Shown piece after piece: positions 1 to 40,870 of a DNA stretch of 64,000 nt (positions are counted from its first letter, which is position 1; each line of letters starts with the position of its first letter). This stretch comes from Pseudohongiella sp. GTDB lineage: Bacteria > Pseudomonadota > Gammaproteobacteria > Pseudomonadales > Pseudohongiellaceae. The stretch is from positions 62,001 through 126,000 of the forward strand of contig JAUSCD010000029.1 in the NCBI GenBank assembly GCA_030651695.1, given 5' to 3'. The notes beneath the pieces are model-generated. The model did no database searches and was not told the DNA's origin. It worked only from the letters and a program-made list of their open reading frames with translations. The translations under genes were made by a program, and so were the position numbers.

Positions 1-727
1 CTATTTCGGAATGCAAGCTTTGCGCCATATTTCGGCCAACATTTGCCTGCAAGCTGTCAGTGTGACAGCGCAAAAACGGATTGGTTCGCTGCTCCAGCAA
101 AATAGACGAAGGCAATGTGGGTAAGCCTTGCCTGCGTTTGTCTGTTTCGGTTTTTATTCGCTCGGTCAGCGCCGCGTTGTCAGGGTCCGCACGTTGAGCA
201 AAAGCCAGATTGTTGAGTGTGTACTCATGAGCACAGTAAATCTGAGTGCTTCCGGGAAGTGCTTCAATCTGGCGCAGGGAAGTGTACATCATCTCCGCTG
301 TGCCCTCAAACAGTCTGCCGCAACCACCGGCAAACAGAGTATCACCGCAAAACAGCGATGGAGTGTCTGCAGGCATATAGTACGCAATGTGGTCCAGAGT
401 ATGTCCGGGCACCGCCATGACAATGAGTTTGTGACCGAAAACATGAATCTCGTCGGAATCTCTGACCGGGTGGGTGATCCCTTTGATATGTCCTCCGGAG
501 GGGCCATACACCGGGATGTTCCGTGCCATGCAAAGATCGGCTAGACCGCCAGTGTGATCAGCATGGTGATGTGTGATCAGAATCCCGCTCAGGGTCAATT
601 GGTTATGTGTTAAAAACTCTTCTACAGGAACCGCGTCTCCGGGATCAACAACAAAAACCTCATTCACATCGTTTTGTATTGCCCAGATATAGTTGTCTTT
701 GAATGCCGGGATTGGCGTTATAGTCAT
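1..727 (-). CDS. gloB: Hydroxyacylglutathione hydrolase (glyoxalase II), 3' end cut by window edge
   Basis: Glyoxalase II hydrolyses S-lactoylglutathione to lactate and glutathione, the second step of methylglyoxal detoxification in the cytoplasm. The reading frame opens at ATG 727 (MTITPIPAFKDNYIW), typical of GloB, and carries the metallo-beta-lactamase metal site THHHADHTGG around residue 50. Near its C-terminal part it reads TNPFLRC, a family hallmark. 242 codons are visible without a stop, so only about 10-15 residues are missing at the left edge. It is divergent from the methyltransferase/rnhA/dnaQ cluster, the arrangement seen in E. coli (gloB-yafS-rnhA-dnaQ). Identification is firm; only the exact end is unseen. 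Confidence 0.95.
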   Translation of the reverse strand, partial: MTITPIPAFKDNYIWAIQNDVNEVFVVDPGDAVPVEEFLTHNQLTLSGILITHHHADHTGGLADLCMARNIPVYGPSGGHIKGITHPVRDSDEIHVFGHKLIVMAVPGHTLDHIAYYMPADTPSLFCGDTLFAGGCGRLFEGTAEMMYTSLRQIEALPGSTQIYCAHEYTLNNLAFAQRADPDNAALTERIKTETDKRRQGLPTLPSSILLEQRTNPFLRCHTDSLQANVGRNMAQSLHSEI

Positions 728-800
728 CGTTGGCCTCAAATCGGGTCGGTGCTGCAAGGTGAATTGCGTTCAGTATGTTTCCGATGATATCAGATCGGGT

Positions 801-830
801 TTGTTGGGGCTGGATCGCAGGTGCTAGAAT
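801..830 (+). promoter_or_regulatory. Probable sigma70 promoter for the methyltransferase-rnhA-dnaQ cluster
   Basis: TTGTTG at 801-806 and TAGAAT at 825-830 are separated by 18 bp, 19 bases before the proposed start codon at 850. The position between divergent gloB and the rightward cluster fits. It is a pattern match only. Confidence 0.45.
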
Positions 831-849
831 CGGGCACGAGGAAGCCAAC

Positions 850-1731
850 ATGAGACGATTGTTTTCAAGGCAGAATTTTTCCAGCCAGTCCGGGCAGCCT
901 GATCCGGTTACGCTTGAGCCGATGTTAGCCGAATGGTTGCACTCGCCGCTGGGCGAAGCGTTGCTGGGGGCAGAGCGCGAGCGTCTGGCTCCCATCATCA
1001 GCCGTGTATTTGGTTATCATGTGCTGCAATTGTCATGTGCGCCGGAAATTGACATGTTAGGGGATTGCCCGGTCTGCCATCAGATCCGTTTTGCGCCATC
1101 CTGGAATGAGAGTAGAAATATTCCTGTAGCAGATATTGAGTCTTTGCCGTTGGCTACTGACAGCATGGACGCGGTTCTCCTGCACCATTCTCTTGATTAC
1201 ACGCCGGACAGTCATCGCCTCTTGCGTGAGGCAACCCGCGTTTTGCGCCCTGGAGGGCGTCTCATAATTGTTGGTTTTAATCCGGCAAGTCTGTGGGGAA
1301 TCTCAAAAATTGTGCGCTGGCGGCGGCAGACACCGTGGAATGCGCGCTTCATCTCTCGGCGGCGGTTGACGGACTGGCTCAGTCTGCTGGATTTTCATGT
1401 TGAATCTGTAGGGTACGGGGGCTATCTGCCGCCAGCCCGTCATCCGCGCATACTGGATCTCGCTCCGGACTTCGAACGCTGGCTTGATCGCCTCGGGAAC
1501 CCTACCGGGGCTTTTTATCTGGTGGTCGCCAGTAAACATCGAATACCTTTGATCCCAGTAGTGCCACGATGGAAGCGTATGCGTGCCCCAACTTTGGGTT
1601 CTCCTCTGGCTGAAACCGGGCGTGTGGCCAGCGGACGGGGCACGGTTGTTCCTCTGCGGCCCCGTCGCGAATCTTTAAATCGCCAGGGGCACTCAAACCG
1701 TGGCTTCCCCGATAAGGATAGTGAAGTCTAA
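850..1731 (+). CDS. Class I SAM-dependent methyltransferase, YafS-like
   Basis: This 293-residue protein is a SAM-dependent methyltransferase of the Methyltransf_11 type. Visible core: [27 protein letters not shown] (split here as motif II/III, around residues 95-120) followed by [21 protein letters not shown], the usual post-catalytic strand. The N-terminal glycine-rich SAM motif is degenerate, as in YafS. The start is placed at ATG 850 because GAGGAAG lies 8 bases upstream; an in-frame ATG at 775 has no such site. Position between gloB and rnhA matches E. coli yafS. The substrate is unknown. The last 40 residues are basic and probably disordered. Confidence 0.8.
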
Positions 1732-1739
1732 CTGACTTC

Positions 1740-2198
1740 ATGTTATGGATTGAAAAATTGTCAGAAACTATTGAAATATATACCGATGGGGCTTGCAAAG
1801 GTAACCCCGGAAAAGGTGGTTGGGGTGCTCTTCTCAGATATCGCGATGTGGTTAGGGAACTGTATGGCGCCGAGCAGCTGACCACCAACAACCGTATGGA
1901 ATTGACCGCCGTCATCAAGGCACTCGAGGCTCTGAAACGCCCCGGGTTATCCGTGCGCCTGTTCAGTGACTCGCGTTATGTTCTGAGCGGCATAGAGGAA
2001 TGGATGCCGGCCTGGAAGGCGCGCGGCTGGAAAACATCAAGTCGTAAACCGGTGCTGAACCAGGATCTCTGGCAACGGCTGGATGAGCTCAGTCAGCAAC
2101 ATAAAATCGAATGGCGTTGGGTAAAAGGCCACAGCGGTGACATCGGCAACGAAAAAGCCGATGAACTGGCCAATCGCGCAATTGAGGAAATGAATTAA
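1740..2198 (+). CDS. rnhA: Ribonuclease HI
   Basis: RNase HI cuts the RNA strand of RNA:DNA hybrids, removing R-loops and primers. The 152-residue protein has the expected acidic active site: Asp in [13 protein letters not shown] (residue 16), Glu in NNRMELTAV, Asp in LFSDSRYV, and Asp near the C-terminus in GNEKADELA, with the substrate-binding WVKGHSG just before it. The N-terminus is about six residues longer than E. coli RnhA, so an internal start is possible. The stop overlaps the dnaQ start by one base (TAATG), which implies translational coupling. Confidence 0.95.
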
Positions 2199-2920
2199 TG
2201 CGTCAGATCGTACTCGATACAGAAACCACAGGTCTGGAACCCTCCCAAGGTCACCGGATTATTGAAATAGGCTGCGTCGAAGTTGATCAACGACGTCTTA
2301 CCGGCCGCCATTTCCACCAGTACATCAAACCCGGGCGCGAAATAGACGAGGCTGCGCAGGAAGTTCATGGCATCACGCTGGAGTTTCTGTCAGACAAACC
2401 GGTTTTCGCCGCGATTGCCGATGAGTTTCTGGAGTTTGTGCGCGGCGCAGAACTGCTCATTCACAATGCCCCCTTTGATATCGGGTTTCTGGATGCAGAG
2501 CTCGCACGACTGGGGCCATCGTATGGCTGTATGAACGATTACTGTCTGGTCACCGATACATTGTCAATGGCCAGACGCAAGCACCCCGGACAGCGCAATA
2601 GCCTGGATGCTTTGTGCAAGCGTTATGATGTTGATAATTCCCAGCGTGACTTGCACGGGGCCTTGCTCGACGCCGAGATACTGGCTGACGTATATCTGTT
2701 GATGAGTGGCGGTCAGACTGATTTGTCGCTAGGTTCCGAAGAAGCGGAAACGGAAATGGATCAGGAGGCCCGCGTGCAGCAGATCAACAGGGAGGGTTTG
2801 TCGCTCACGGTTGTTTCCGCTCAGCCAGCCGAGATCGAAGCCCATCAGCAGTTGCTTGCGCGTATTCATAAGTCCAGCGGGCAGCGTTGCTTGTGGCTTA
2901 TGCAGGACAGTGAAGCGTGA
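2198..2920 (+). CDS. dnaQ: DNA polymerase III epsilon subunit (3'-5' proofreading exonuclease)
   Basis: Epsilon is the proofreading subunit of the replicative polymerase core. The 240-residue protein shows the three DEDDh exonuclease motifs: VLDTETTGLE (Exo I, residues 5-14), HNAPFDIGFLDAEL (Exo II, about 98) and HGALLDAEILADVY (Exo III, about 160). The C-terminal 60 residues correspond to the flexible linker and alpha-binding segment. It starts inside the rnhA stop codon and its own stop overlaps the nudC GTG start (GTGA), so the three genes are tightly coupled. Confidence 0.95.
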   Translation: MRQIVLDTETTGLEPSQGHRIIEIGCVEVDQRRLTGRHFHQYIKPGREIDEAAQEVHGITLEFLSDKPVFAAIADEFLEFVRGAELLIHNAPFDIGFLDAELARLGPSYGCMNDYCLVTDTLSMARRKHPGQRNSLDALCKRYDVDNSQRDLHGALLDAEILADVYLLMSGGQTDLSLGSEEAETEMDQEARVQQINREGLSLTVVSAQPAEIEAHQQLLARIHKSSGQRCLWLMQDSEA

Positions 2921-3810
2921 GTGCAGCGATGGCGGCCCGCTCACCCGATTCGGGCCAGGATAGCAGGCTCATTGAAGAGGGCGGCGCGTACCTGTTGTTT
3001 TACCAGTCTGAGGTCATCCTCAGATCAAGAACTGCCAGTCCGCCAGCCGGGCACGATCTGAAGGATTCCACTCAATACGATCTGTTCTGGCCCGCCGATG
3101 CGCTCCAGCAGCATAGTGCTTTGATGACAGCTATAATTCCTGTAGACGCCGGCTTTGGTGATGACAGTGCCCTATGTGCGCTGGTGCTTAGCCAGCTGCC
3201 AGAAACACTACCAGGTGCCTTGCCGGTGCCTGTGCGGCAGTTGTTGATGGAGCGCGGCTTTGAGGCGTTCAGTCTGGTAGGGCGCGCCAGTCAATGGGTT
3301 AACTGGTTCCGCTGCCACCAATTCTGCGGAAGTTGCGGCAATGTTAATGAGCTGCGTAATAACGGCCGTCTGTTGCACTGTAAACACTGTGAGACGGATT
3401 ACTATCCTCGTATCAATCCCTGTGTCATTGTTCTGGTAACAGATGGGGACCGGATATTGCTGGCTCGCAGCACCCGGCGAGGTGCAACTTTTTTCAGTTG
3501 CCTTGCCGGGTTTATAGAACCAGGCGAAACGGCGGAAGAGGCTGTGATCAGAGAAGTTTATGAGGAAGCAGGGATACAGATTAAAAATGTCCGGTATGTT
3601 AAAAGCCAGCCGTGGCCATTTCCGTCCCAGCTGATGCTGGGGTTTTACGCCGATTATGCCGGCGGGGATTTGAATCCGTGTCCTGAGGAATTGGCAGAAG
3701 CGGACTGGTTTGATGTGCGACAGCTACCGCTAACACCAGCGCCCGCCATCAGCGTGGCTGGTCAATTGATTGAAAGTTATTGTCATCTGGTAACAATGAA
3801 GGAGTCTTGA
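2917..3810 (+). CDS. nudC: NAD(H) pyrophosphatase / RNA deNADding enzyme NudC
   Basis: NudC hydrolyses NAD(H) to NMN(H) and AMP and removes NAD caps from RNA. The 297-residue protein has the zinc site CGSCG..CKHC (about residues 140-163), the Nudix box GFIEPGETAEEA..REVYEEAG (about 202-224), and the NudC-specific SQPWPFPSQ immediately after it, which separates it from other Nudix enzymes. It is longer than the E. coli protein (257) because of a longer N-terminal domain. The start is GTG 2917, overlapping the dnaQ stop by four bases. Confidence 0.93.
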   Translation: MSAAMAARSPDSGQDSRLIEEGGAYLLFYQSEVILRSRTASPPAGHDLKDSTQYDLFWPADALQQHSALMTAIIPVDAGFGDDSALCALVLSQLPETLPGALPVPVRQLLMERGFEAFSLVGRASQWVNWFRCHQFCGSCGNVNELRNNGRLLHCKHCETDYYPRINPCVIVLVTDGDRILLARSTRRGATFFSCLAGFIEPGETAEEAVIREVYEEAGIQIKNVRYVKSQPWPFPSQLMLGFYADYAGGDLNPCPEELAEADWFDVRQLPLTPAPAISVAGQLIESYCHLVTMKES

Positions 3811-3812
3811 TT

Positions 3813-4889
3813 TTGGAGTATCTGTTTGAGTACGCAATGTTTCTGGCAAAAACACTGACTATTGTCATTGCTGTTTTTGCCATCGTGACCATGATGGTGG
3901 CTGCTGGCCAGCGGCGGCGGCATATGCCTCGTGGCAGTATTAATGTCACTCACCTGAACCGGGAGCTGGAGTCGTTGAGAGACAGCCTGCAAAGGGTGGT
4001 CATGGATAAGTTTGCCTTTAAAAAGTATCTCAAGCGGGAAAAGAAGCGTGATAAAGAAGAGGCCAAACAACTAAAAATCAGTGCTGAAAAAAATCATGTG
4101 GAAAACCAGGAGGAAGTTGCCACTGAGAGCCGCCGACGCCGTGTGTATGTGCTTGATTTTGATGGTGACATGGAGGCATCCGGTGTTGAGTCTCTGCGTC
4201 AGGAGATTACGGCAGTGCTCACCATGGCTGAGCCATGTGACGAAGTCATGTTGCGTCTTGAGAGCCCGGGAGGCATGGTTCATGCCTATGGTTTGGCCTC
4301 ATCACAGCTATTGCGGTTCAAGCAGAAGAACATTCCGTTAACAGTGTGTGTTGATAAAGTTGCTGCCAGCGGTGGCTACATGATGGCGTGTGTTGCGGAT
4401 CGTTTGGTTGCTGCGCCTTTTGCCATTCTGGGCTCCATTGGTGTGTTGGTGCAGATGCCCAACATCCATCGTTTGCTCAAGAAAAATGATGTCGACTTTG
4501 AATTGATCACTGCCGGCGAGTACAAGCGCACCGTCACACCGTTTACCGAAGTGACAGAAAAAGGTCGTGAAAAACTGCGACAGGACGTGCAGGAGATGCA
4601 TGAGCTTTTTAAACAATGGGTGAAGCAGTACCGTCCGGTGGTCGACATTGACCAGATCGCTACCGGCGAGACCTGGGTAGGATTGCAGGCACAGGAGCGG
4701 CAGATGGTTGACCAGCTAAGCACAAGTGACGACATCATTGTGCAGGCTTGTGAGGAGGCTGATGTCTACGAAGTCAGCTACGAGATCCGTATCCCCTTGG
4801 GTGAAAAGCTCGGCGGGGCACTGCAGAAAGCCATGGATAAAACGTTGATGGTCTGGTGGCAGCGTCTTAGAACCACTCGATATTTTTAA
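3813..4889 (+). CDS. sohB: Inner-membrane protease SohB (S49 family)
   Basis: SohB is a membrane-anchored serine protease related to signal-peptide peptidase SppA. A transmembrane helix covers about residues 8-27 (FLAKTLTIVIAVFAIVTMM), followed by a basic, charged region and the S49 catalytic core: nucleophile Ser in AASGGYMM and general-base Lys in TAGEYKRT. I place the start at TTG 3813, giving 358 residues, because AAGGAG lies at 3799-3804 and the resulting N-terminus (MEYLFEYAMFLAK) aligns with E. coli SohB. An ATG at 3780 would overlap nudC by 31 bases without a good ribosome site. Natural substrates are unknown. Confidence 0.9.
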   Translation: MEYLFEYAMFLAKTLTIVIAVFAIVTMMVAAGQRRRHMPRGSINVTHLNRELESLRDSLQRVVMDKFAFKKYLKREKKRDKEEAKQLKISAEKNHVENQEEVATESRRRRVYVLDFDGDMEASGVESLRQEITAVLTMAEPCDEVMLRLESPGGMVHAYGLASSQLLRFKQKNIPLTVCVDKVAASGGYMMACVADRLVAAPFAILGSIGVLVQMPNIHRLLKKNDVDFELITAGEYKRTVTPFTEVTEKGREKLRQDVQEMHELFKQWVKQYRPVVDIDQIATGETWVGLQAQERQMVDQLSTSDDIIVQACEEADVYEVSYEIRIPLGEKLGGALQKAMDKTLMVWWQRLRTTRYF

Positions 4890-4932
4890 TTAAAACAATG
4901 TGATGAGTTAACTATTAAAGGTTTTGGATTAC

Positions 4933-5952
4933 ATGAATCTTGATGATCAGGAATTTACGGCCTACCAGGTCACGGAACAAGCGGGTGGCGAGCGTGCCAG
5001 CTACCACGGCACTTTGACACAAAAGAAAGTTGCTGATTTGCCTGCGGGCGATGTGTTGGTCAGGGTGGCATATTCCTCTCTCAATTATAAGGATGCTTTG
5101 TCAGCTACCGGCAATAAAGGTGTTACTCGCCAGTATCCGCATACCCCGGGAATTGATGCTGCCGGGGTAGTCGCCGAATCCGATAGTCAGCTGTTCAGCG
5201 CCGGAGACGAGGTGATTGTCATCGGCTATGACCTTGGTATGAACACGGCCGGGGGGTTTGCCCAGTTTATTCGTGTGCCAGCATCATGGGTGGTCAAACG
5301 GCCTGCCGGTTTAAGCCTGAATGAAAGCATGATTGTTGGTACCGCCGGATTCACTGCAGCTTTGTGTATAGAAAAACTGCTGCTGAACGGGCTTGATCCG
5401 GCACAGGGTCCTGTCCTTGTTACCGGCGCCAGTGGCGGTGTTGGCAGTTTTGCAGTGGCCTTGCTGGCGCAACTCGGGTTTGAAGTGACTGCCATGACAG
5501 GGTCAGAGTCTGCCCACGATTTTTTGCGTGAGCTGGGCGCAAGTCAGATTATTGGTCGCGAAGATTACAGTCAGCCTTCTCCCAAACCAATGAATAAAGA
5601 GCTGTGGGCCGGCGCGGTTGATGCAGTAGGGGGCGATATTCTGTTTAACGTCGTCAAATCGCTGAAATATGGTGGCAGTGTTGCGTGTTGTGGACTGGTG
5701 GCATCACCTCAGTTCCAGGCAACGGTGTTCCCGTTTATTCTGCGTGGCGTCAATTTGCTGGGAGTAGATTCAGTCAATCTGCCCCTGGCTCACAAGAGCC
5801 AGTTGTGGAACAAGCTGGCAGGCAACTGGAAACCCAAAGGTCTTGCGCAGCTTGAAACCCGTATTGGGTTTGCTGAACTGGACAGTGCATTACGCACTGT
5901 ACTGTCAGGCGAAAGCACCGGCAGGTTGGTGCTGGCGCTGGGTAAAGACTGA
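4933..5952 (+). CDS. acuI: Acrylyl-CoA reductase-type quinone oxidoreductase (AcuI/YhdH family)
   Basis: This is a zinc-independent medium-chain dehydrogenase/reductase of the YhdH/YhfP family; characterised members (AcuI) reduce acrylyl-CoA to propionyl-CoA with NADPH. Family features: SSLNYKDALSATG near residue 50, HTPGIDAAGVV near 70, the nucleotide-binding VTGASGGVGSFAV near 160 and the late segment GVDSVNLP. I prefer ATG 4933 (339 residues), 11 bases after AAAGG at 4917-4921; an in-frame TTG at 4924 is too close to that site. The protection against toxic acrylyl-CoA would suit a DMSP- or propionate-using marine organism, but that is inference. Confidence 0.85.
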   Translation: MNLDDQEFTAYQVTEQAGGERASYHGTLTQKKVADLPAGDVLVRVAYSSLNYKDALSATGNKGVTRQYPHTPGIDAAGVVAESDSQLFSAGDEVIVIGYDLGMNTAGGFAQFIRVPASWVVKRPAGLSLNESMIVGTAGFTAALCIEKLLLNGLDPAQGPVLVTGASGGVGSFAVALLAQLGFEVTAMTGSESAHDFLRELGASQIIGREDYSQPSPKPMNKELWAGAVDAVGGDILFNVVKSLKYGGSVACCGLVASPQFQATVFPFILRGVNLLGVDSVNLPLAHKSQLWNKLAGNWKPKGLAQLETRIGFAELDSALRTVLSGESTGRLVLALGKD

Positions 5953-5985
5953 TCCTGTGGCAGTAACGCTGTGCTGGTTAGGGGA

Positions 5986-6020
5986 CAAAAAGACGCAGGG
6001 GTCCGTTACTGCCTGCGTCT
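5986..6020 (-). terminator. Rho-independent terminator of the cysI-type/DUF934 operon
   Basis: Read leftward, AGACGCAGG (6020-6012) pairs with CCTGCGTCT (5999-5991) and is followed by TTTTTG. The stem overlaps the last codons of the DUF934 gene. The same stretch can also pair GGCAGTAACG (5959-5968) with CGTTACTGCC (6004-6013), an alternative fold that would exclude the terminator. Confidence 0.7.
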
Positions 6021-6527
6021 GAACAGAGGAAGAGGTTGGTCTATAGCGGGCTGATAAGCATCATGAAAATCGTTGAATGCCGCCAGTGCTGCGTCCATGT
6101 CCTGATCATCGCGTAATACAAAGGCATTAAACCCGCAGCGGCGCATAAAAAACAACTGATCTCTGAGCACGTCACCGATTGCACGGACTTCGCCCTGGTA
6201 TCCCATGCGCTGTCTGAGCTCGCGCGCTGTCGAGAAAGATCGGCCGTCTTTAAACTCGGGGAAGTTCAGCGCTATCACCGGGATCGCGTGGATATCATCT
6301 GCCAGCGCGGCCGGCAGCTCGTGGCTATCCAGCCATACCCCCGTGTTTCCTTTACGGCTTTGGATGGCGCTCTTCTGTGCCAGCCAAAATGCCAAAGGCA
6401 CTATGATATCCATGCCATCCAGCGCAGGAAGGCTCTCAGCGGTCAGCCCGCTGCTTTGCAGATACCAGCTGTCAGGCTGCGCGGCGCCATCTTTAATCAG
6501 CTTGTTTGTCATCTGCCTTGTTTCCAT
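6006..6527 (-). CDS. DUF934 family protein, partner of sulfite/nitrite reductase
   Basis: The 173-residue protein belongs to DUF934, found next to cysI-type reductases in proteobacteria and often called an oxidoreductase-associated protein. The conserved core LDSHE...IPVIALNFPEFKDGRSFSTARELRQRMGYQGEVRAIGDVLRDQLFFMRRCGFNAFVL spans about residues 65-140 (written here with dots for skipped residues). Its start ATG 6527 follows GAGG at a normal distance and lies inside the upstream reductase gene, with a 35-base overlap, so the two are co-translated. Its biochemical function has not been established; a role in assimilatory sulfur reduction is inferred from this linkage. Confidence 0.85.
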   Translation of the reverse strand: METRQMTNKLIKDGAAQPDSWYLQSSGLTAESLPALDGMDIIVPLAFWLAQKSAIQSRKGNTGVWLDSHELPAALADDIHAIPVIALNFPEFKDGRSFSTARELRQRMGYQGEVRAIGDVLRDQLFFMRRCGFNAFVLRDDQDMDAALAAFNDFHDAYQPAIDQPLPLFRRRQ

Positions 6528-8166
6528 AAAGAGCCTCTTTGAACGGGTCCATGCCTATACGATTATAGGCTGCCAGGAAGTTTTCGCCGGCATCCCTGTG
6601 CTGCTGATAAACCTGCACGATCTTTTCAATGACATCTGGCACTTCATCCTGAGAGAAGGAAGGTCCAACAATTTTTCCGAGAGCAGTGTGGTTGTCAGCA
6701 GAGCCACCGAGTGATATCTGGTAGTACTCTTCGCCTTTTTTATCCACCCCGAGAATGCCTATATTGCCGACGTGATGGTGTCCGCAGGCGTTCATGCAGC
6801 CCGAGATATTCAGCGATAACTGGCCGATTTCGCGCAGCTGGGGGTAGCTGAAACGGCGCTGGATAGCTTCTGCAATCGGAATGGATTTGGCATTGGCCAG
6901 TGAGCAGAAGTCGCCACCGGGGCAGCAGATCATATCGCTGAGCAAACCAAGATTATCGGCCTCCAGATCGTGAGTCTTCAGAGACTGCCACAAATCATAG
7001 AGCTGGTCTTTTTCAACATCGGCCAGCACCAGATTCTGGGTGTGGGTAATTCGCATTTCACCAAAGCTGTAGCGATCCGCAATGTCTGCAATAAATCGCA
7101 TCTGATCCGAGTCCAGATCTCCCGGCGCAAACCCGGTCTTTTTAACGCAGATGGTAACAATGGCATAACCCTGCTTTTTGTGAGCTGCAATATTCTGCTC
7201 ATACCAGGACGCAAACAGCACATCTTTGTTGAGCGCCGCTTCAAGCGTTGCGCTATCGGCAGGCAGGGTTTTGTAGGCCGGATCATGGAAAAACGCGCGG
7301 CAGCGTTCAACTTCATCCTGCGTCAGCGTCAGCGGGCCATCTTTTAACACCTTCCACTCGGTTTCTACTTTTTCTCTGAACTCGTTAACTCCGGTTTCCT
7401 TGACCAGAATCTTTATGCGGGCTTTGTACTTGTTGTCTCGTCGCCCTTCGCGGTTGTATACACGCAAAATGGCATCCAGATAACTCAGTAAATGTTCCTG
7501 AGGGAGGAAGGAATTGATTTCACTGCCTATAACTGGAGTACGGCCAAGCCCGCCGCCTACCAACACCCTGAAGCCGATTTCACCTTTGTCGTTCTTAAGC
7601 AGATAAAGGCCGATATCGTGAACCTGGGTCGCAGCCTGGTCCTGGCGTGTGCCACAGACAGCGATTTTGAATTTTCTGGGCAGGAAAGCGAATTCAGGGT
7701 GGAATGTAGACCACTGGCGGATAATCTCGCAATAAGCGCGCGCATCCTCTACTTCGTCTGCAGAAACACCTGCGAACTGATCTGTTGTCGTGTTGCGAAT
7801 GCAGTTGCCACTTGTCTGGATGGCATGCATTTCCACTTCAGCCAGGTGTGCCAGAATATCCGGTACATCAGCCAGCGCTGGCCAGTTGAACTGTATGTTC
7901 TGGCGCGTCGTCAGGTGCCCATAGCCTTTGTCGAAGTGATCAGCGATGAATGCGAGTTTGCGCATTTGCACGGACGACAGCATGCCGTAAGGGATAGCGA
8001 TGCGAAGCATCGGTGCAAGACGCTGAATATAAAGGCCATTTTGCAGACGCAGGGGCAGAAACTCGGCGCTACTCAGCTTGCCGTCCAGGAATCGACTGGT
8101 CTGGTCCCGGAACTGAGCTACGCGGTCGGCAAGCATCTGATGATCGTACTGGTCGTATCTGTACAT
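6493..8166 (-). CDS. cysI: Siroheme/4Fe-4S nitrite/sulfite reductase (CysI-like)
   Basis: This 557-residue enzyme carries out the six-electron reduction of sulfite to sulfide (or nitrite to ammonia) using siroheme coupled to a 4Fe-4S cluster. Both half-repeats of the family are present: the N-terminal ferredoxin-like part with HLTTRQNIQFNW and RNTTTD near residue 135, and the C-terminal cluster ligands CCPGGDFCSLA and SGCMNACGHH around 430-490. No flavoprotein partner (cysJ) is adjacent; the linked DUF934 gene is the usual companion of this ferredoxin-type class. Sulfite is more likely than nitrite as substrate because of that companion, but sequence alone does not settle it. Confidence 0.9.
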   Translation of the reverse strand: MYRYDQYDHQMLADRVAQFRDQTSRFLDGKLSSAEFLPLRLQNGLYIQRLAPMLRIAIPYGMLSSVQMRKLAFIADHFDKGYGHLTTRQNIQFNWPALADVPDILAHLAEVEMHAIQTSGNCIRNTTTDQFAGVSADEVEDARAYCEIIRQWSTFHPEFAFLPRKFKIAVCGTRQDQAATQVHDIGLYLLKNDKGEIGFRVLVGGGLGRTPVIGSEINSFLPQEHLLSYLDAILRVYNREGRRDNKYKARIKILVKETGVNEFREKVETEWKVLKDGPLTLTQDEVERCRAFFHDPAYKTLPADSATLEAALNKDVLFASWYEQNIAAHKKQGYAIVTICVKKTGFAPGDLDSDQMRFIADIADRYSFGEMRITHTQNLVLADVEKDQLYDLWQSLKTHDLEADNLGLLSDMICCPGGDFCSLANAKSIPIAEAIQRRFSYPQLREIGQLSLNISGCMNACGHHHVGNIGILGVDKKGEEYYQISLGGSADNHTALGKIVGPSFSQDEVPDVIEKIVQVYQQHRDAGENFLAAYNRIGMDPFKEALYGNKADDKQAD

Positions 8167-8407
8167 GATATTAGGGTCAACCTGTCAAGGTTCGCATCTG
8201 GCGGAGGGGCGACATTGTAATAAATCACCCTTTTTAATTCCATCATAAGGAGGAGCTTTTTTATTACCGTTTTTTATTAGCTTAGTGCTTTTTGTCCTAA
8301 GATGAAGTGGGTAACAGGGCGGTATCTTGATTATCAGGGAAAAGTCTTTAAAATGCGGCGCCGCGAGAGATCATTATTCAGCGATCATAACCCAGTGAGA
8401 GAGCATC
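8167..8407. promoter_or_regulatory. Divergent intergenic region with promoter for the 43-residue membrane protein
   Basis: For the rightward gene, TTGATT (8327-8332) and TAAAAT (8349-8354) are spaced by 16 bp, followed by a GC-rich stretch GCGGCGCCGC. The rest is AT-rich and must contain the leftward promoter of the cysI-type gene, which I could not assign. I see no riboswitch-like structure. Confidence 0.4.
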
Positions 8408-8539
8408 ATGAGCCACCACGATACAGAGTCTGCGTACACCCCTCAGGAAATAGAAGAAAACAGCCGTGTTGATGCGCTGGCGATATTTTCGATAGTCGTT
8501 ATTGCTATCGGTCTGGTGGTTTTTTTCGTCGCCGGCTGA
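8408..8539 (+). CDS. Small single-pass membrane protein (43 residues), unknown function
   Basis: A short frame opens at ATG 8408 after GAGAGAG, with a plausible promoter upstream. The product has an acidic, His-rich N-terminus (MSHHDTESAYTPQEIEEN) and one hydrophobic helix (ALAIFSIVVIAIGLVVFFVAG) ending the protein. It stops four bases before the convergent DUF2970 gene. The good ribosome site, promoter and clean helix suggest a real gene; the function is unknown. Confidence 0.6.
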   Translation: MSHHDTESAYTPQEIEENSRVDALAIFSIVVIAIGLVVFFVAG

Positions 8540-8543
8540 GGAC

Positions 8544-8771
8544 TCAGGGCAGGACAATCGAGACGATGGTTACGATTGTCAGTACAAACAGTACAGTGAA
8601 AATGAGCGCGGCCGCGATAAAGCCCTTGATGGAGCCTTTTTCGAAGTCGCGCTCTTTGTTTTTCTGGTTCTGAACGCCAAAACTGGCCTGGAAAACACTC
8701 AACATCATCTGCCAGAAAGACAGCTTCTTTTCAGTATCGGCATCGTGTTCTGTGCTTTTCTGTTGTGACAT
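8544..8771 (-). CDS. DUF2970 family small membrane protein
   Basis: The 75-residue protein matches DUF2970: FWQMMLSVFQASFGVQNQKN..RDFEKGS followed by a C-terminal transmembrane helix (FIAAALIFTVLFVLTIVTIVSIVL). GGAG precedes ATG 8771 at a normal distance. It is convergent with the 43-residue protein. The family is common in gammaproteobacteria and betaproteobacteria and has no assigned role. Confidence 0.8.
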   Translation of the reverse strand: MSQQKSTEHDADTEKKLSFWQMMLSVFQASFGVQNQKNKERDFEKGSIKGFIAAALIFTVLFVLTIVTIVSIVLP

Positions 8772-8839
8772 AACTGCTCCGTAAATCGGTTTGTCAACCG
8801 GGCGCTGCCCCGTGATGTTGCCTGCTCAATCAGACTGGT

Positions 8840-11800
8840 TCAGTCTAGCAGATTTGGCATCAACAAACGCCTGGCCTGCTCCTCTGTGACACTATGTCGC
8901 AGAGCATAGTCTGACACCTGGTCATCATTGATTTTGCCAACTGCAAAATAGCGTGATTCGGGATGCGCAAAATAGAAACCACTGACGCTCGCCGCCGGAA
9001 GCATGGCAAAACTTTCCGTCAGTGACATGCCTATCCTGCCCGGCACTCCCAGTAAATCAAATACCGCCACCTTATCTGAATGTTCCGGACAGGCAGGGTA
9101 TCCGGGAGCAGGGCGTATTCCCCGGTACTTCTCTTTGATCAGCGCCTCGTTATCCAGTGTTTCACCTGGCGCATATCCCCAGAATTCACGTCGCACCCGC
9201 TCATGCAAATGCTCTGCAAAGGCTTCCGCAAGTCGGTCTGCCAACGCTTTGACCATCAGCGCATTGTAATCGTTGTTTTCAAGCTCATATTTACTTGCCA
9301 GTTCCTGCGCGCCGACACCGGCTGTGACTGCAAAACCACCGATGTAATCACAAGGAGCATCGTCAGCGCTGGCGACAAAATCCGCCAGCGACAGGTTTGG
9401 TATGCCGTCTGCTTTGGCAGCTTGCTGACGCAGGAAGTTAAAAGTATGTAACGCTTCTGTGCGGGTGTCATCGGTAAAAATGGTGACGTCATTTCGGCCG
9501 CTGCGTATGGCTGGCCAGAATCCGAAGACAGCCTGGGCCTTGAGAAGTTTGTTGTCGATAATATGCTTGAGCATATTCTGAGCATCGTCAAAAAGATCGC
9601 GTGCAGCTTGTCCGACGACTTCATCCTGCAAAATCGACGGGTATTTTCCTGCAAGACTCCAGGTGATGAAAAATGGTGTCCAGTCGATGTAGGGCACCAA
9701 CACATCCAGTGGGTAATCTTCCAGCGCCTGAGGTTCGAGACTGGCGGGGCGGGTGATGGTGTCTTTGTGCCATTGGAATTGACCGGCATTTTGATTGGCT
9801 TCGGCAAAAGTCAGCAGGCTTTTACGCTGATCACGGCCCGCTGTGCGGGCGCGGACAGTATCGTATTCTGCGCGCACACCTTCAACAAAACTGTCCCGTG
9901 TTTCGGTGCTCAACAGGTTGCTCACTACAGTCACACTGCGTGAAGCGTCCGGAACATACACGGTGGCATTATTTTTGTAGTGTTGTTCAATTTTCACCGC
10001 AGTGTGTGCTTTTGAGGTTGTAGCACCACCAATCAGCAGAGGTACAGTAAAGTTCAGGCGCTGCATTTCCTTGGCAACATGTACCATCTCATCAAGTGAC
10101 GGTGTAATAAGTCCGCTCAAGCCGATAATATCCACGTTATTATCGCGCGCAGCCTGAAGAATTTTTTCGCAAGGTACCATGACGCCCATATCGATAATGT
10201 CATAGTTATTGCAGGCCAGTACAACGCCTACAATATTTTTACCGATATCGTGAACGTCACCTTTTACGGTGGCCAGCAGGACCTTGCCTTTGGCTTTGTT
10301 GGCGGTGCCGGAGCGCGCTTTTTCAGCCTCAATGTACGGCAGAAGATAGGCCACAGCCTGCTTCATCACGCGGGCGCTTTTGACAACCTGTGGCAGGAAC
10401 ATTTTTCCACTGCCAAAAAGATCACCCACAACGTTCATGCCGTCCATCAGTGGGCCTTCGATTACCTGTATTGGTTTTTCGAATAGCTGGCGCGCCTCTT
10501 CGGTGTCCTCTTCAATGAATCTTGTGATGCCCTTTACCAGCGCATGAGTGATACGATCACCCACCGGTGTTTTGCGCCACTCAAGATCTTCCTGTACCTC
10601 AATGGCACCACTACCACTATAACGGCCGGCGATTTCCATCAGTCGGTCTGTGCCATCTGCCCGTCTGTTTTGTACGATATCTTCGACACGCTCACGCAGT
10701 TCGGCTGGGATCTCATCGTAAACAGCCAGTTGTCCCGCGTTCACGATACCCATATTGAGTCCCGCCTTGATGGCGTGGAACAGGAATACGGAGTGAATCG
10801 CCTCGCGCACATGGTCATTGCCACGGAAGGAAAAAGACACATTGCTGACGCCGCCTGAAATCAAGGCATGCGGCAGATTCTGGCGTATGTAACGGCAGCT
10901 ATCGATAAAGTCGACTGCGTAGTTGTTGTGCTCTTCGATACCGGTGGCAATTGCAAATATATTCGGATCGAAAATGATGTCTTCAGGTGGGAAGCCAATT
11001 TTCTGTACCAGAATGTCGTAGCTGCGCTTGCAGATCAACTTCTTTTTTTCCAGGGTGTCAGCCTGTCCTGACTCATCAAATGCCATGACAACCACTGCGG
11101 CTCCATAGCGCCGGCACAGTCGCGCCTTTGCCAGAAATTCGTCTTCGCCTTCTTTCAGGCTGATAGAGTTGACAATGCCTTTGCCCTGAATGTTTTTTAA
11201 TCCGGTTTCTATCACTTCCCATTTGGAGGAATCAATCATCACTGGGACGCGGCTGATATCGGGCTCGGCAGCTATCAGGCGCAGGAATTTTTCCATCGCT
11301 GCGCGCGAGTCCAGCATACCTTCGTCCATGTTGATATCAATGATCTGAGCGCCGCTTTCAACTTGTTGAAGCGCGACATCCAGAGCTTCGTTGTACTGCT
11401 GCTCAATAATCAAACGTGCAAATTTGCGTGAACCGGTGATATTGGTACGCTCGCCGATATTGACAAACAGGCTGTCGTCGCCAATGTTAAACGCTTCCAG
11501 CCCGCTCAAACGGCATTTAACAGGCACGTCAGGAATTTCACGCGGGGGATATTTGGAAACCGCGTCAGACACTGCCTTGATATGTTGGGGTGTTGTTCCG
11601 CAGCAACCACCGATAATGTTCAGAAATCCGCTGGCTGCAAATTCTTCAACAATGCTCGCCATTTCCCGCGCACTCTGGTCGTATTCACCGAATGCATTGG
11701 GCAGGCCGGCATTGGGATGTGCTGATACAAAGGTATTGGCCAGTCGTGATATTTCTTCCACGTGCGGGCGCAGCTGTTCGGCGCCCAGCGCACAGTTGAA

Positions 11801-12550
11801 ACCTATCGAAATCGGGTTGGCGTGGGACAGCGCATTCCAGAAAGCTTCGACAGTCTGGCCGGATAATGTCCTGCCGCTGGCATCGGTAATCGTACCTGAG
11901 ATCATGATTGGCAGTTCGATGCCAAGCTTTTCATAAGTATTCTGTACGGCAAAAACGGCGGCTTTTGCATTTAACGTGTCGAAGATGGTTTCGATCAACA
12001 GAATGTCAGCGCCGCCACCAATCAAGGCTTCAGCTGCTATCTCATAGTCTGCAACCAGGGCGTCGAAGTCCGTATTCCTGAAGCCAGGGTCATTCACATC
12101 CGGCGATAAAGAGGCTGTCCGGCTGGTCGGGCCAATAACCCCGGCAACAAATCTTGGTTTGTCTGGCTGTTGTGCCGTCATCTGATCACAACAGACACGA
12201 GCGAGGCGTGCGCCTTCGTAATTGAGCTCTCTGACGACGGACTGCAGCCCGTAGTCAGACTGTGACACCGCTGTCGAATTGAATGTGTTGGTCTCCACGA
12301 TATCCGCTCCGGCGCCAAGGTACGCCAGATGTATTTTGGAGATGATATCCGGGCGCGTCAGCGTCAACAGGTCGTTGTTGCCTGTCAGGTCCGAAGGATG
12401 GTCCTTGAACCGGTCGCCACGGAAATCAGCTTCTTTCAGCTTTTCTGCCTGGATCATGGTGCCCATTGCGCCATCAAGAATCAGAATTCGTTGACGTAAG
12501 GCTTGCCGCAGCAGCTCGAAAGAGGGGTGTTGTTTCATGGTGAGGTCCAT
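8840..12550 (-). CDS. metH: Cobalamin-dependent methionine synthase
   Basis: MetH transfers the methyl group of 5-methyltetrahydrofolate to homocysteine through methylcobalamin. All four modules are present in about 1236 residues: homocysteine/zinc domain (first Cys in [13 protein letters not shown], Cys pair in [11 protein letters not shown] near 310), pterin domain ([14 protein letters not shown] near 370), cobalamin domain with the His ligand in [14 protein letters not shown] (near 760), and the C-terminal AdoMet reactivation domain ([17 protein letters not shown]). I place the start at ATG 12550 or 12538; a frame extending to 12586 has no ribosome site. It diverges from nfuA. I see no cobalamin riboswitch upstream. 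Confidence 0.96.
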
Positions 12551-12646
12551 TGTTCCACGGTATCGTCGCCTGGGTCCGGGCGACAAGCCTGTATGTGTTG
12601 GCAGTTTTTAAAGAGGCGTAATTCTACCAGAGTCGGTCGCTCAGAT

Positions 12647-12658
12647 GACAAATTTGTC
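12647..12658. promoter_or_regulatory. Perfect palindrome GACAAATTTGTC between metH and nfuA
   Basis: A 12-bp perfect dyad lies between the divergent metH and nfuA starts. On the leftward strand it overlaps a candidate -35 (TTGTCA) placed 19 bp from TAGAAT. It could be an operator for metH; it does not match the MetR consensus I know. Confidence 0.35.
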
Positions 12659-12749
12659 CTGGGATTGCGCAACGGACTGGAAAAAACATAATAACCCAGT
12701 AAAATGGTCGGCTATTATCTAGGCCCATCTGATGAGGCATGTGCAGTAT

Positions 12750-13331
12750 ATGGTTACGATTACAGAATCAGCCCAGGATTATCTGGCAGAGTTGTTAAAA
12801 AAGCAGGACGCTGAAGGCATTGGTATCAGGGTGTTTATCCTTGATCCTGGTACACCCAAGGCTGAGACCTGCATTTCTTTTTGCCGGCCCGGAGAAGAGA
12901 AAGAGGATGATGACCGCAAAGAATATCCTCAGTTCCATGCCTGGATAGAAAAACGCAGCATCCCGTTTCTGGAAGAGGCAGTCGTGGATTATGCTAAAGA
13001 CAGCATGGGCGGGCAGTTGACAATCAAGGCTCCAAACTCGCGATTGCCCAAGATTCGTGAAGACAGTTCCATTGAAGACCGTATCAACTATGTACTCTAC
13101 AACGAGATCAATCCGTCGTTGGCCTCCCATGGCGGAGTCGTCAGCCTTGAGGATCTGGTTAACGACTCCATCGCAATCCTGAAATTTGGTGGTGGATGCC
13201 AGGGCTGCGGTATGGTTGATGTCACGCTCAAAGATGGTGTTGAGAAGACTTTGTTGGAGAAAGTGCCCGGTTTGACAGAGGTCAGAGATGTTACCGACCA
13301 TTCGAACCGGGATAATGCCTACTTCAAGTAA
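12750..13331 (+). CDS. nfuA: Fe-S biogenesis protein NfuA
   Basis: NfuA carries and delivers 4Fe-4S clusters to target proteins, particularly under oxidative stress or iron limitation. The 193-residue protein has the degenerate A-type scaffold domain at the N-terminus ([21 protein letters not shown], shown to residue 50) and the C-terminal Nfu domain with the cluster-binding CxxC in [18 protein letters not shown] 12750 gives an N-terminus ([12 protein letters not shown]) aligning with E. coli NfuA; an ATG at 12732 would add six unusual residues. A GAGG lies 12 bases upstream. It is divergent from metH. Confidence 0.95.
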
Positions 13332-13342
13332 TGTGTGGTGAA

Positions 13343-14008
13343 TTATCCGGAGTAACGCTGGTGCAAAGCGGCATACAGCAGCTCCGGGTAATTGTCTGAG
13401 TCCTGCGGTAACGCAGTCATCAGCTCTACAAGGTGCTCGTTATCTTCGCGGTTTCCCCATATCTTCCGGTAGCTCCCGTCTTTATAGCCGTTATCCTGAC
13501 GAAAGAAGTTAAGAACATTTTTACCGACGTATTGCCGGTAGAGTTCGGACCAATCCATCTGACAGTCTTGAAGAATCGACGCAAAAACATTCAGCTCGAT
13601 ACGGTTGAGACCGCTTAGCGCGATCAGTAGCTGCAACTTGCCCAGCAGATCCATGGTCTGCAGATTATAGGTCTGGCCGTCGCAATGGACGATGGCATTG
13701 CTGCAATTGTCCATAAGCGCCTGCAACGTTGCAGCGGCTTTGTCCATGTCGCCTGAGTCCCTGAGTAAAATTTCTGATAGCAGGAAGTGCCAGATATCAA
13801 CAAGTTCCATCTGCAATTGAGGCAGATCACAGACCTGCTTCTTCCACCATTTCCAGCCGTGATGTTCAATAGCCTCTGCCGCTTCGATAACCACAGCGCG
13901 TAAATACGGGTAGGCGGCGGTGACCCAGGCAGGGTCAACTTTGCTGTTCATATCACTTTGCAGGCGCAGCAAGGTGCTGGCTTGTCGAGGGGTCAACAAT
14001 GCATTCAT
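13343..14008 (-). CDS. Dimeric dUTPase-like all-alpha NTP pyrophosphohydrolase
   Basis: The 221-residue protein resembles dimeric dUTPases of the all-alpha (MazG-like) NTP-PPase superfamily, which hydrolyse dUTP or related nucleotides to the monophosphate. The metal-binding pattern is visible: EAAEAIEHHGWKWWKK at about residue 42 and ELVDIWHFLLSEIL at about 67, with the later KNVLNFFRQDNGYKDG segment (about 165-180) typical of the dimeric dUTPase subgroup. It follows a 92-residue gene by 15 bases, likely in one transcript. Substrate is inferred from family; trimeric dUTPase is not visible in this window. Confidence 0.7.
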   Translation of the reverse strand: MNALLTPRQASTLLRLQSDMNSKVDPAWVTAAYPYLRAVVIEAAEAIEHHGWKWWKKQVCDLPQLQMELVDIWHFLLSEILLRDSGDMDKAAATLQALMDNCSNAIVHCDGQTYNLQTMDLLGKLQLLIALSGLNRIELNVFASILQDCQMDWSELYRQYVGKNVLNFFRQDNGYKDGSYRKIWGNREDNEHLVELMTALPQDSDNYPELLYAALHQRYSG

Positions 14009-18357: not shown

Positions 18358-18445
18358 GGTGAGGTGTCCGAGTGGCTGAAGGAGCACGCCTGGAAAGTGT
18401 GTATACGGCAACGTATCGAGGGTTCGAATCCCTCCCTCACCGCCA
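18358..18445 (+). tRNA. tRNA-Ser (anticodon GGA)
   Basis: The 88-nt sequence folds as a class II tRNA: acceptor GGTGAGG/CCTCACC, anticodon loop CTGGAAA (GGA), a long variable arm GTGTATACGGCAACGTATC, T-loop GTTCGAA, discriminator G and encoded CCA. Its last 19 bases recur 187 bp downstream. Confidence 0.97.
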
Positions 18446-18690
18446 ATCAAGAATAAGCAGGTGTCAAAGCGGCCTGCTTACTGCAAGAATAAGCCAAAGC
18501 CAGCCCGGGAGGGAGGCGAACCCGACAGAGGGTCGATAAGTTGCGCAGCAACTTACAACGAGCGCGTGAGCGCGAAGCCCGCAGGGTCAAACAGCCGCGA
18601 AGGCTGTTTGATTAATCCCTCCCTCACCGCCAATCAAGAATAAGCAGGTGTCAAAGCGGCCTGCTTACTGCAAGAATAAGCCAAAGCCAG
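18427..18690 (+). repeat. rtT-like tandem repeat containing the tRNA-Ser 3' end
   Basis: A 77-bp sequence occurs twice without mismatch, at 18427-18503 and 18614-18690. The first copy starts inside tRNA-Ser, so each copy carries its last 19 bases including CCA plus 58 bases of downstream sequence. The repeat period is 187 bp. The 110 bp between the copies hold three short hairpins, for example AAGTTGC/GCAACTT and AAACAGCC/GGCTGTTT. The layout closely resembles the E. coli tyrT locus, where roughly 180-bp repeats each carry 19 bases of the tRNA-Tyr 3' end and yield rtT RNA. A translated frame across the repeat (18461-18643) looks non-coding. Confidence 0.85.
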
Positions 18691-18806
18691 TTTGATATTC
18701 CTTCCTCTCTACCTGTTACAGCCTGTTTTAACAGCCATTCCTAAATAAATGGTCTTGTTGTAGTATCGATTGCGTCAGTCAATCAATAATTACAAGAGAT
18801 CCGACC
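18691..18806. other. Upstream region of the first PQQ dehydrogenase gene
   Basis: This AT-rich stretch separates the tRNA-Ser repeat from the PQQ dehydrogenase gene. AAGAGAT lies just before the start codon at 18807. I see no convincing promoter hexamers and no gene. Confidence 0.4.
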
Positions 18807-39451: not shown

Positions 39452-39527
39452 GGGGCTATAGCTCAGCTGGGAGAGCGCAACACTGGCAGTGTTGAGGTCA
39501 GCGGTTCGATCCCGCTTAGCTCCACCA
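39452..39527 (+). tRNA. tRNA-Ala (anticodon GGC), prophage attachment gene
   Basis: The 76-nt sequence folds normally: GGGGCTA/TAGCTCC acceptor with one G-T pair, anticodon loop CTGGCAG on CAACA/TGTTG, T-loop GTTCGAT, discriminator A, encoded CCA. The prophage integrase gene lies 108 bp downstream, so its 3' half is the probable attL core. Confidence 0.97.
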
Positions 39528-39634: not shown

Positions 39635-40870
39635 TCATCCAAAATCCCTGCCGAGCAGCTCTGCAGTCATGATTATTGGCACCTGTTCGTAAGGTAAATC
39701 ATGCTCATCCTGGTACCCGCGCGTGGTGGCCTCATTCTCATGAGCCATTGCCTGTTGGATAACTTTCAGTTCGTATCCGGCGGTGGTCGCCAGGGCACTG
39801 GCCAGCCCGCGTATCTCATGGAAAGTCGTCGGTGTTCGATCGTCCGGAATCTCCAGGTGGACCTTGGCAACAATGCGCGCCTCATTGAACATACTCATCA
39901 AGCGCCGGGGTGTGACCTGGTGAGTGTGGGTCTTTGTTTTCCCGATGCGTTTTTGCTTTGGCGTGTGGCTGATCAGATACGGGCAACGCTCATGCAACAG
40001 ACTTAGTTGCATCCCTCGAGCGATCAGCTGGCGAAGCAACCCGTAGTTGGTTTGATCCCAGGACAACCTGGACGCATTGGCGGTGCCGCGCTGCGCCTCG
40101 CTTTTTCCGATGACACGACGCAGTAAGCTGTCCCGCAGGTGTTCATCAATTTTCAGGCTGCAGATGTCGGACTCTCGCATAAATGTTGTCAGGCTTATGC
40201 CCATCGCTATCTGCAGACATTGGTATCCGAGACTGCCGGCCGCGTCATAAATTTTCCAGAAATCCTCCAGCACACACGGCATGCGTGACTTCTCCGGCTC
40301 CCCATTAAGATAAAAGCGAGGGCGATCGTCAGCCGTTGTAAACGGGTTGTAGTCCAGCCGCGGGCATAGGCACTGCCCCATGAGCCAGTTGAACAGCCGC
40401 CGAAATTCCGCGTGTCGCAATTTCTGCTGGTGATGAGTAAGTTGCAGCCACCAGATATCGATCACGTCTCGTTTGATGTGACCAATTGGCTTGCTGGCCA
40501 TCGCGTGGCCGAAGGCTTTGAGTGCATAAGTCCGGTTAATCCAGCTGGATTTCGTTACCAGATTGGGGTCCTGTCGCTCTCGGTACTGGATATATAACCT
40601 GATCCAATACAGAAGGCTGTCCCTGCCTGGCTGCTGATTTGCGCGGGTGGTTGGCATGGTATGCCGGCGCGCATTGTTCTCGTTTGCGATCCTGTTTGCC
40701 GCCTCAACACCGATCGCTGAGAAGTATCTCCAGCTGTTGTCCGGCCGCTGATAACGCCAATAATTCGGCCTATTTGTGCTGTAAAGATGATCGGCGAGGG
40801 TAACACCTTCAAACGTCCGGGAGAGTTTTGGGCGGGCCATGGCGGTGTCTGCTTTGGTGATTTTCTTCAC
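39635..40870 (-). CDS. int: Tyrosine integrase of the prophage
   Basis: The 411-residue site-specific recombinase should integrate the phage at tRNA-Ala. The catalytic pattern is visible: first Arg in MRESDICSLKI (about residue 228), HEIRGLAS (His-x-x-Arg, about 350), the late His in AMAHENEATTRGYQ and the nucleophilic Tyr in the same segment (about 389). The N-terminal 100 residues look like an arm-binding domain plus a core-binding SAM-like domain. It reads toward the attachment site, as in most tRNA-integrated phages. Confidence 0.92.
   Translation of the reverse strand: MKKITKADTAMARPKLSRTFEGVTLADHLYSTNRPNYWRYQRPDNSWRYFSAIGVEAANRIANENNARRHTMPTTRANQQPGRDSLLYWIRLYIQYRERQDPNLVTKSSWINRTYALKAFGHAMASKPIGHIKRDVIDIWWLQLTHHQQKLRHAEFRRLFNWLMGQCLCPRLDYNPFTTADDRPRFYLNGEPEKSRMPCVLEDFWKIYDAAGSLGYQCLQIAMGISLTTFMRESDICSLKIDEHLRDSLLRRVIGKSEAQRGTANASRLSWDQTNYGLLRQLIARGMQLSLLHERCPYLISHTPKQKRIGKTKTHTHQVTPRRLMSMFNEARIVAKVHLEIPDDRTPTTFHEIRGLASALATTAGYELKVIQQAMAHENEATTRGYQDEHDLPYEQVPIIMTAELLGRDFG

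Follow-up and report, generated by a model that had tools for sequence, protein, structure and literature searches.

How does the 3´ end of a serine tRNA gene come to be repeated, without a mismatch and 187 bp away, behind an intact copy of the same gene? The question is raised by the window, a stretch of 64,000 nucleotides from a Pseudohongiella sp. genome (G000), in which all features of the locus lie on the + strand. The host gene, tRNA-Ser(GGA), is intact (18358–18445; ARAGORN, and 54.1 bits against the Rfam tRNA model). As the first-pass annotation had described, its last 19 nt (A58 to CCA; 18427–18445) open a 77-bp direct repeat, 18427–18503 and 18614–18690, whose two copies are 100% identical and whose starts are spaced by 187 bp. 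The other 58 nt of the repeat form a spacer, X. The first copy of X (18446–18503) contains, by eye, an 8-bp hairpin (TAAGCAGG/CCTGCTTA) without a T run, and the second copy (18633–18690) has no second core behind it. Within the window, there are two occurrences of the final 18 nt of this tRNA and a single one of its final 20 nt. The repeat is not a product of chance, because the identical layout is found behind the tRNAs of many genomes.

The 110 nt between the two copies (18504–18613) are rich in hairpins. Three had been counted there, which proved too few: the stretch holds an arm able to pair with the copy of the tRNA end, stems A, B and C, and a CCC-GCA-GGG hairpin. The left arm (18504–18524) is an inverted copy of the T arm and the acceptor start of the tRNA, as recognized from the sequence and from relatives. 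It is followed by a copy of the T-stem 5´ strand with TCGA (18528–18536), which marks, by sequence and alignment, the left side of the putative insertion point. The core (18537–18613), delimited by sequence, fold and alignment of relatives, is composed of stem A (18537–18555), stem B (18562–18573), CCC-GCA-GGG (18578–18586) and stem C (18587–18611), and abuts the second copy of the 19 nt (18614–18632), which is the right arm of the unit. In aligned relatives, the general order of a unit is X, the left arm, a T-stem 5´ strand copy with TTCGA or TCGA, the core and the last 18–19 nt of the tRNA; the general core consists of stems A, B, CCC-N3-GGG and C. The RNA fold of 18446–18720 has an energy of –99.2 kcal/mol (z –3.8 versus shuffles), and no terminator-like site was found on the + strand between 18200 and 18900.

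Relatives in other genomes and the link to rtT

Searches in other genomes and behind other tRNAs returned matches, and the repeat is not unique to its source genome. The unit matches three further places in its own genome, and the spacer element matches 19 of 56 genomes, its own included. A covariance model built from 25 copies without any enterobacterial sequence (R1) matched, at E ≤ 0.01, 76 of the 369 genomes of the class, including its own with seven places, and, in a set of 398 genomes spanning the phylum, 33, of which 19 are listed outside the class. In the window, R1 has a single match at this threshold (18505–18632, 136.6 bits, the window copy being part of the training set). A second model (R2) was restricted to the core and built from 54 copies stripped of their tRNA arms, two of them from E. 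coli. Since the stems were misaligned by MAFFT, R2 retained only two base pairs and works essentially as a sequence profile. R2 finds cores in 144 of the 369 genomes of the class, with eight in the own genome and a maximum of 12 in any genome.

The cores sit behind tRNAs of ten amino acids. Among the fetched loci, 113 of 143 R1 matches have a tRNA on the same strand within 900 nt upstream (Ser 85, Arg 8, Phe 7, Gln 6, Tyr 4 and Glu 3), a spectrum that is biased because the training copies were from Ser and Phe loci, with some that had no tRNA in the fetched stretch. Scored in the same manner, 65 of 98 R2 matches have an upstream tRNA (Ser 27, Arg 15, Tyr 9, Gln 6, Glu 4, Pro 3 and Val 1), two of the three Pro matches lying more than 400 nt from it; the 98 exclude L238, which is the same place as L213, and the 40 regions with new R2 places were picked by hand rather than at random. 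The family is carried, for instance, by Microbulbifer (at Phe), by Alteromonas sediminis (at Ser and Lys) and by a SAR86-labelled MAG (at Leu and Phe), and sister copies occur in P. nitratireducens. Two copies stand apart from a recognizable tRNA gene. One in Alteromonas sediminis (L188) is a Ser-type unit that, by eye, keeps the spacer and CCGCCA and apparently lies behind a decayed tRNA-Ser. The other, in the own genome (L004; G000:C21:213366-213492), has Ser-TGA-type arms, no tRNA gene in the fetched 3.1 kb, and flanks with 40-nt direct repeats 204 bp apart.

A likeness to the rtT repeats of E. coli had been proposed from the common design, and it extends beyond that design, as R1 and the Rfam RtT model (RF00391) match each other's copies. 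R1 matches the four rtT units at tyrT/tyrV of E. coli K-12 with 38.9, 37.1, 35.1 and 33.0 bits. At E ≤ 1, RF00391 matches four places in the own genome, the best of which is at tRNA-Ser(GCT) (40.8 bits, E 2.7e-6); the window copy is matched weakly (16.8 bits, E 1.1), and both scores are under the curated cutoff of 45 bits. These matches, though weak, are full-length, covering model positions 1–130. The cutoff is reached at 4 of 20 carrier loci scanned, three at Tyr and one at Ser-GGA (L054). Because the models match mutually and the window copy scores only 16.8 bits, the window element is, judged by these models, a relative of rtT that lies outside the current limits of the Rfam family. Other sub-threshold Rfam matches (e.g. 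sX4, RNAI and istR) were taken as chance or as likeness to terminators or tRNA. The earlier remark that the tRNA differs from that of tyrT holds insofar as the host is Ser; it does not make this locus unique, given the RtT-level copy at Ser-GGA and the cores behind tRNAs of ten amino acids. The repeat noted first is a variant of the rtT-type repeats rather than a serine curiosity. The rtT RNA of the E. coli tyrT operon is hereby tied to a family that 144 of the 369 class genomes carry, as do some genomes from other classes in the phylum, and for which annotation by Rfam RtT at its cutoff finds only 4 of the 20 carrier loci scanned.

The units share several features. Both E. coli rtT and the window unit repeat the final 19 nt of the tRNA that precedes them, with periods of 178 and 187, respectively. 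E. coli rtT and this family also have in common the inverted left arm, TTCGA or TCGA before the core, the CCC-N3-GGG hairpin and TAAT before the tRNA end. The window unit differs in its tRNA (Ser, not Tyr) and its stems, and it lacks ATGAGAA, a motif that both the E. coli left arm and the Phe sisters of the window copy have. In E. coli, rttR is annotated as a 171-nt RNA that begins 8 nt after tyrV, ends with the CCA of the repeated tRNA end and covers nearly one whole unit. In the literature, RtT-family RNAs precede one Asn and one Lys tRNA gene of Actinobacillus pleuropneumoniae, and one of these RNAs is conserved across Pasteurellaceae (Rossi 2016, PMC4986893); rtT-like sequences lie inside an attenuator cluster belonging to BIMEs (Naville 2010, PMC2965389); RtT contains a tandem GA motif (PMC7657543); a stem-loop survey removed tRNA-related clusters (PMC2267715); and rttR appears in a gene list (PMC9501238). 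Searches in a partial collection of papers listed neither an rtT repeat at a serine tRNA nor a proposal that rtT is mobile.

Cores in tRNA loops and arms matched to the host

The wider result is that cores are lodged in tRNA loops. At 244 sites, the 30 nt to the left of the core were set against the 172 distinct tRNAs of the fetched loci, with shuffled left flanks as a control. A tRNA match of at least 23/30 was found at 19 of 244 sites, 13 of them matching 30/30, as against 1 of 243 shuffled flanks. The breakpoint appears fixed: 11 of the 13 exact cases, in Arg, Val, Ser and Gln tRNAs, stop exactly 18 nt before the tRNA end, after TTCGA (A58). Of the other two, a Val case stops 3 nt earlier owing to a substitution, and the last has its core behind CTCGA in the Ser-CGA anticodon loop. 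In 15 of the 19 cases, an intact tRNA of matching type follows downstream, within 117 nt in 14 of them. The 12 cases displayed have the layout of tRNA nucleotides 1–58 (or up to the anticodon loop), the core, mostly a partial 3´ strand, and then the intact tRNA; in several of them, the 5´ flank of the tRNA is repeated as well. This layout is the mirror image of that in the window, and one locus (L222) has both layouts around one intact tRNA-Ser.

By eye, cores are also seen in D loops (L265, L267 and L275) and, after CTCGA, in an apparent tRNA-Ser(CGA) anticodon loop at L277 (G074), where three stand in tandem, and at L230:1811; only one of these anticodon-loop cores is an exact 30/30 case. 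A separate test in which the joined flanks were given to ARAGORN (9 of 257 sites) was dropped, since its shifted controls, which hit ordinary tRNAs in the vicinity, scored 8 and 7.

The account that we hold to be probable, by a modest measure, is that a hairpin element without an ORF inserts at TCGA|A in tRNA loops together with a partial tRNA duplication that spares one tRNA, and that arrays then grow or shrink. The element would be small, with a core of about 75–90 bp, one copy of which would be held in the spacer of the window. The insertion site would be TCGA|A in a hairpin loop of the tRNA, nearly always the T loop after A58, and the tRNA gene would be partly duplicated in the process, one tRNA staying intact. 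Copies on the downstream side would retain the tRNA 3´ end (A58/59 to CCA), seen in the window as the 19-nt repeat; upstream copies would retain tRNA nucleotides 1–58 and, in several cases, some 5´ flank with the presumed promoter. Units would multiply or vanish via recombination between the 19-nt repeats, and E. coli rtT would be a member of the same family. Transposition itself, the order of events and the recombination between repeats are what we infer here.

The arms fit the host tRNA at most loci tested. In a gapped alignment, the left arm fits its own tRNA end better than the tRNAs of other amino acids at 85 of 89 loci (24 of 27 non-Ser; one unit per locus and tRNA, 15–110 nt from the tRNA); an earlier ungapped test gave 75 of 80, with identity at chance level beyond approximately tRNA position 70. 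For the right arm, an identity of 18/19 or better with the tRNA upstream was scored in 64 of 112 units (one of 113 was left out because its predicted tRNA stopped short of CCA), namely in 26 of 33 internal units and 38 of 79 last or only units. By tRNA, the counts are Ser 52/84, Tyr 4/4, Gln 5/6, Glu 1/3, Arg 2/8 and Phe 0/7. The poor right arms at Phe and Arg count against insertion, as does the only Leu case, in which the arms fit badly by eye. The inverted left arm, which often has a ATGAGAACC motif, does not follow from simple insertion and weighs in the same direction. So does the state of the core-split tRNAs: no clean insertion is preserved, because their 3´ parts are mostly truncated. 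At some loci, a palindromic spacer stands between the tRNA end and the left arm, which has the look of a fold-back copy of the tRNA end; a perfect stem of at least 8 is present in 27 of 89 spacers and in 6 of 1780 shuffled ones.

Cores were compared across 159 of 170 entries (those dropped were one duplicate place and others shorter than 95 nt or with N), with "identity" denoting the alignment score per length; of one set of 31 matches, eight were not entered, being cut by a contig end, partial or at about 13–14 bits. In a separate comparison, the core is better kept than the adjoining spacer X at Ser loci, which is not so at Phe; between G000 and G007 at Ser-GGA, the values are 0.92 for the core, 0.97 for the left arm and 0.72 for X, with 0.744 for metH DNA. 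At Ser-GCT, the own genome and seven relatives have left arms that are 0.74–0.90 identical and cores at 0.51–0.56, which shows a core replaced within conserved arms; among the 159 entries, the core nearest to it is in the second unit at Ser-GGA of G010 (0.83). The G010 array itself (L013/L122) has, by eye, two tandem units with a nearly full common spacer and left arm and with different cores, suggestive of a cassette that can be swapped.

These comparisons bear on a reading without any mobility, namely that the tRNA trailer was duplicated locally in tandem and that the likeness among loci reflects a common origin in one ancient repeat, together with gene conversion. The arrays fit unequal crossing-over across the 19 nt, and cores in the home genus mostly group by tRNA; they look vertically inherited, which also counts against insertion. 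In G188, the flanks as well as the cores are shared: the two cores score 0.94, as against at most 0.75 to same-tRNA cores elsewhere, and ordinary recombination would suffice there because both tRNAs share the last 19 nt and have similar spacers. We nevertheless judge local duplication improbable as the explanation of the family. In G064, the cores behind Ser-GGA and Ser-GCT are nearly identical by eye while the spacers differ, and the base difference between the two tRNAs (CCCTCC vs CCCTCG) is mirrored in the left arms; the exchanged core at Ser-GCT of G000 and the cores in the T and anticodon loops of tRNA copies also speak against it.

If insertion into tRNA loops is preferred, what moves the element? 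Neither a transposition event nor an enzyme for the insertion was found, which weighs against the insertion account. A Y1 transposase as the mover is not supported, the association being weak: PF01797 (Y1_Tnp, E ≤ 1e-6) is present in 98 of 144 core-bearing genomes and 118 of 225 others (odds ratio 1.93, p 0.003, uncorrected for kinship). It is absent from 46 of the 144 core-bearing genomes, and none was found in the element-rich G059, G170, G117, G354, G355 and G291; the own genome has two.

Known systems resemble the element in part. REP/BIME sequences occur in high copy number and have GTAG hairpins that are recognized by RAYT. Like these small palindromic repeats, the element is short, ORF-less, hairpin-rich and dispersed; unlike them, it has few copies (8 cores here and at most 12 per genome), lies mostly at tRNA genes and has arms fitted to the host. 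PATE/MITE elements derived from IS200/IS605 have hairpins, as here, and insert after a fixed short sequence, as may be the case here, whereas the present element has only the weak Y1 association, a specificity for tRNA loops and the partial tRNA duplication. With integrative elements at tRNA 3´ ends, it shares an apparently fixed T-loop breakpoint, an intact tRNA and a direct repeat of the tRNA end, but the 187-bp unit is too short for an integrase and the core also occurs upstream of an intact tRNA, after a copy of nucleotides 1–58.

A broader proposal, which we advance tentatively and at somewhat less than even confidence, is that rtT-type repeats in general may be mobile DNA, not recognized as such in the papers searched. 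They would be ORF-less hairpins of ~80 bp that enter tRNA loops at TCGA|A (the T loop, more rarely the anticodon loop and perhaps the D loop) and are tolerated because the coupled partial duplication keeps or rebuilds an intact tRNA. Such insertion would be a possible origin of rtT, with E. coli rttR as a descendant that was perhaps put to use as RNA. How insertion into a tRNA gene is survived and why tandem repeats gather at tRNA ends are thereby opened to test.

Pairing and selection in the core

The first-pass annotation had suggested that a small RNA, cut by tRNA enzymes, might be released from the repeat. In this reading, the locus would be an rtT-type trailer RNA gene: cleavage of a joint transcript where the tRNA ends and again at the 19-nt copy would set free a regulatory RNA, and selection on this RNA would keep the arms and hairpins. 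The annotation of E. coli rttR is in favor of it, and so is strong covariation: 31 of the 32 model pairs changed on both sides somewhere in the family (886 double-changed cells), and the covariation score is 0.444 as against at most 0.076 for slid pairings, in an alignment that was fitted to the model and leans towards it. The better preservation of the core than of its adjoining spacer at Ser loci, not at Phe, is a further point for it.

A wobble test for RNA pairing gave no clear G-U preference in the core. Stem A has 11 G-U and 11 A-C among 998 cells, and stems A, B, CCC-GGG and C together have 32 G-U and 22 A-C among 2763; stem C was poorly aligned (123 "other" of 907 cells) and has little weight here. 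The tRNA stems of the same loci have 36 G-U and no A-C in 1140 cells, a control that is flattered because ARAGORN selects well-paired genes. In the helices between the left and right arms, G-U exceeds A-C (63 vs 25 of 797). When the two strands of the 146 distinct sequences among the 159 entries were folded separately, the core pairs included G-U at 127 of 3654 in the sense strand and 218 of 3654 in the antisense strand, which argues against selection as RNA, whereas the sense strand was slightly the more stable (87 of 146 for the core and 100 of 146 for the unit). Because the sense strand folds slightly better and G-U exceeds A-C (32 v 22), there is room for selection on RNA.

Also against the trailer RNA, a terminator-like hairpin lies between the tRNA and the element at 31 of 89 loci, including all 10 Phe loci, as against 50 of 890 after shuffling (sampled as in the left-arm test). 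The cores within broken tRNA copies speak against it as well, and so does the right arm, which falls short of 18/19 in 41 of the 79 units that are last or single. Taken together, we consider the trailer RNA an unlikely account of the family, though a better candidate than local duplication. We read the core as probably under selection or repair acting on DNA hairpins, although some loci may, like that of E. coli, have a function as RNA. Whether selection keeps a released RNA or a DNA element is a question that the family now opens to test.

Gain, loss and islands at tRNA-Ser(GGA)

Both empty and filled sites are observed in the home genus. The Ser-GGA site was scored in 14 of 15 genomes, G006 having no Ser-GGA locus in hand, and the element is absent from six relatives (G001, G002, G004, G005, G009 and G011). 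At element-free sites, the leader of the next gene stands directly after the CCA of the tRNA; by eye, this leader corresponds to the window from 18726 on (18726–18790) in L113 (G004), L114 (G011), L116 (G001), L121 (G002) and L124 (G005), not in G009. Filled sites hold two units in G007 and in G010, three units and an extra partial core in G014, one truncated unit in G012 and at least one unit, beside a run of N, in G008. On the MetH tree, presence and absence of the element require at least two changes. No gain is proved at this site, because early presence with two losses is the simplest account; both changes may be losses, which counts against the insertion account.

In G003 and G013, an island of ~13–14 kb lies between tRNA-Ser and the element. 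In L135 (G003:C8:201300-220000), the island extends from about 330 to 13460, an ORF with a Phage_integrase domain adjoins the tRNA, and other ORFs match a phage replication protein (Phage_GPA) and the PM2-type coat protein P2 (all by Pfam); the island ORFs of L136 (G013:C10:6300-25000) look like those of L135. Both islands are provirus-like.

The tRNA 3´ end is a common target of integrases, and the repeat had alternatively been viewed as a remnant of repeated integration at this end. Read as a rival, the units would be what is left of attachment sites at which integrase-dependent islands entered the tRNA 3´ end time and again. The islands in the two relatives fit this view, and the notion of integration survives in part, as the core behaves like an insertion into tRNA loops. 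As a general cause, an origin as island flanks is rejected and we regard it as very improbable: tandem units have a common conserved core, and most loci have no room for an island because the tRNA lies within 900 nt upstream in 113 of 143 R1 matches. Carriage of the unit by phages or plasmids is likewise rejected, as none of 50,697 phage and 72,556 plasmid records was matched by the 245-nt unit in blastn at E ≤ 0.01, and no viral contig had the exact core pattern. Between the repeats of the window, where the gap is only 110 nt, there is no integrase gene.

Elsewhere in the window, the last 18 nt of tRNA-Ala(GGC) (39452–39527) have no second occurrence. By eye, this tRNA is followed by a reverse-strand tyrosine recombinase-like ORF (39635–40870), and the region 39635–53000 contains a primase-like ORF (43261–45996) and a tail-tape-measure-like ORF (50631–52964), perhaps a prophage at tRNA-Ala(GGC).
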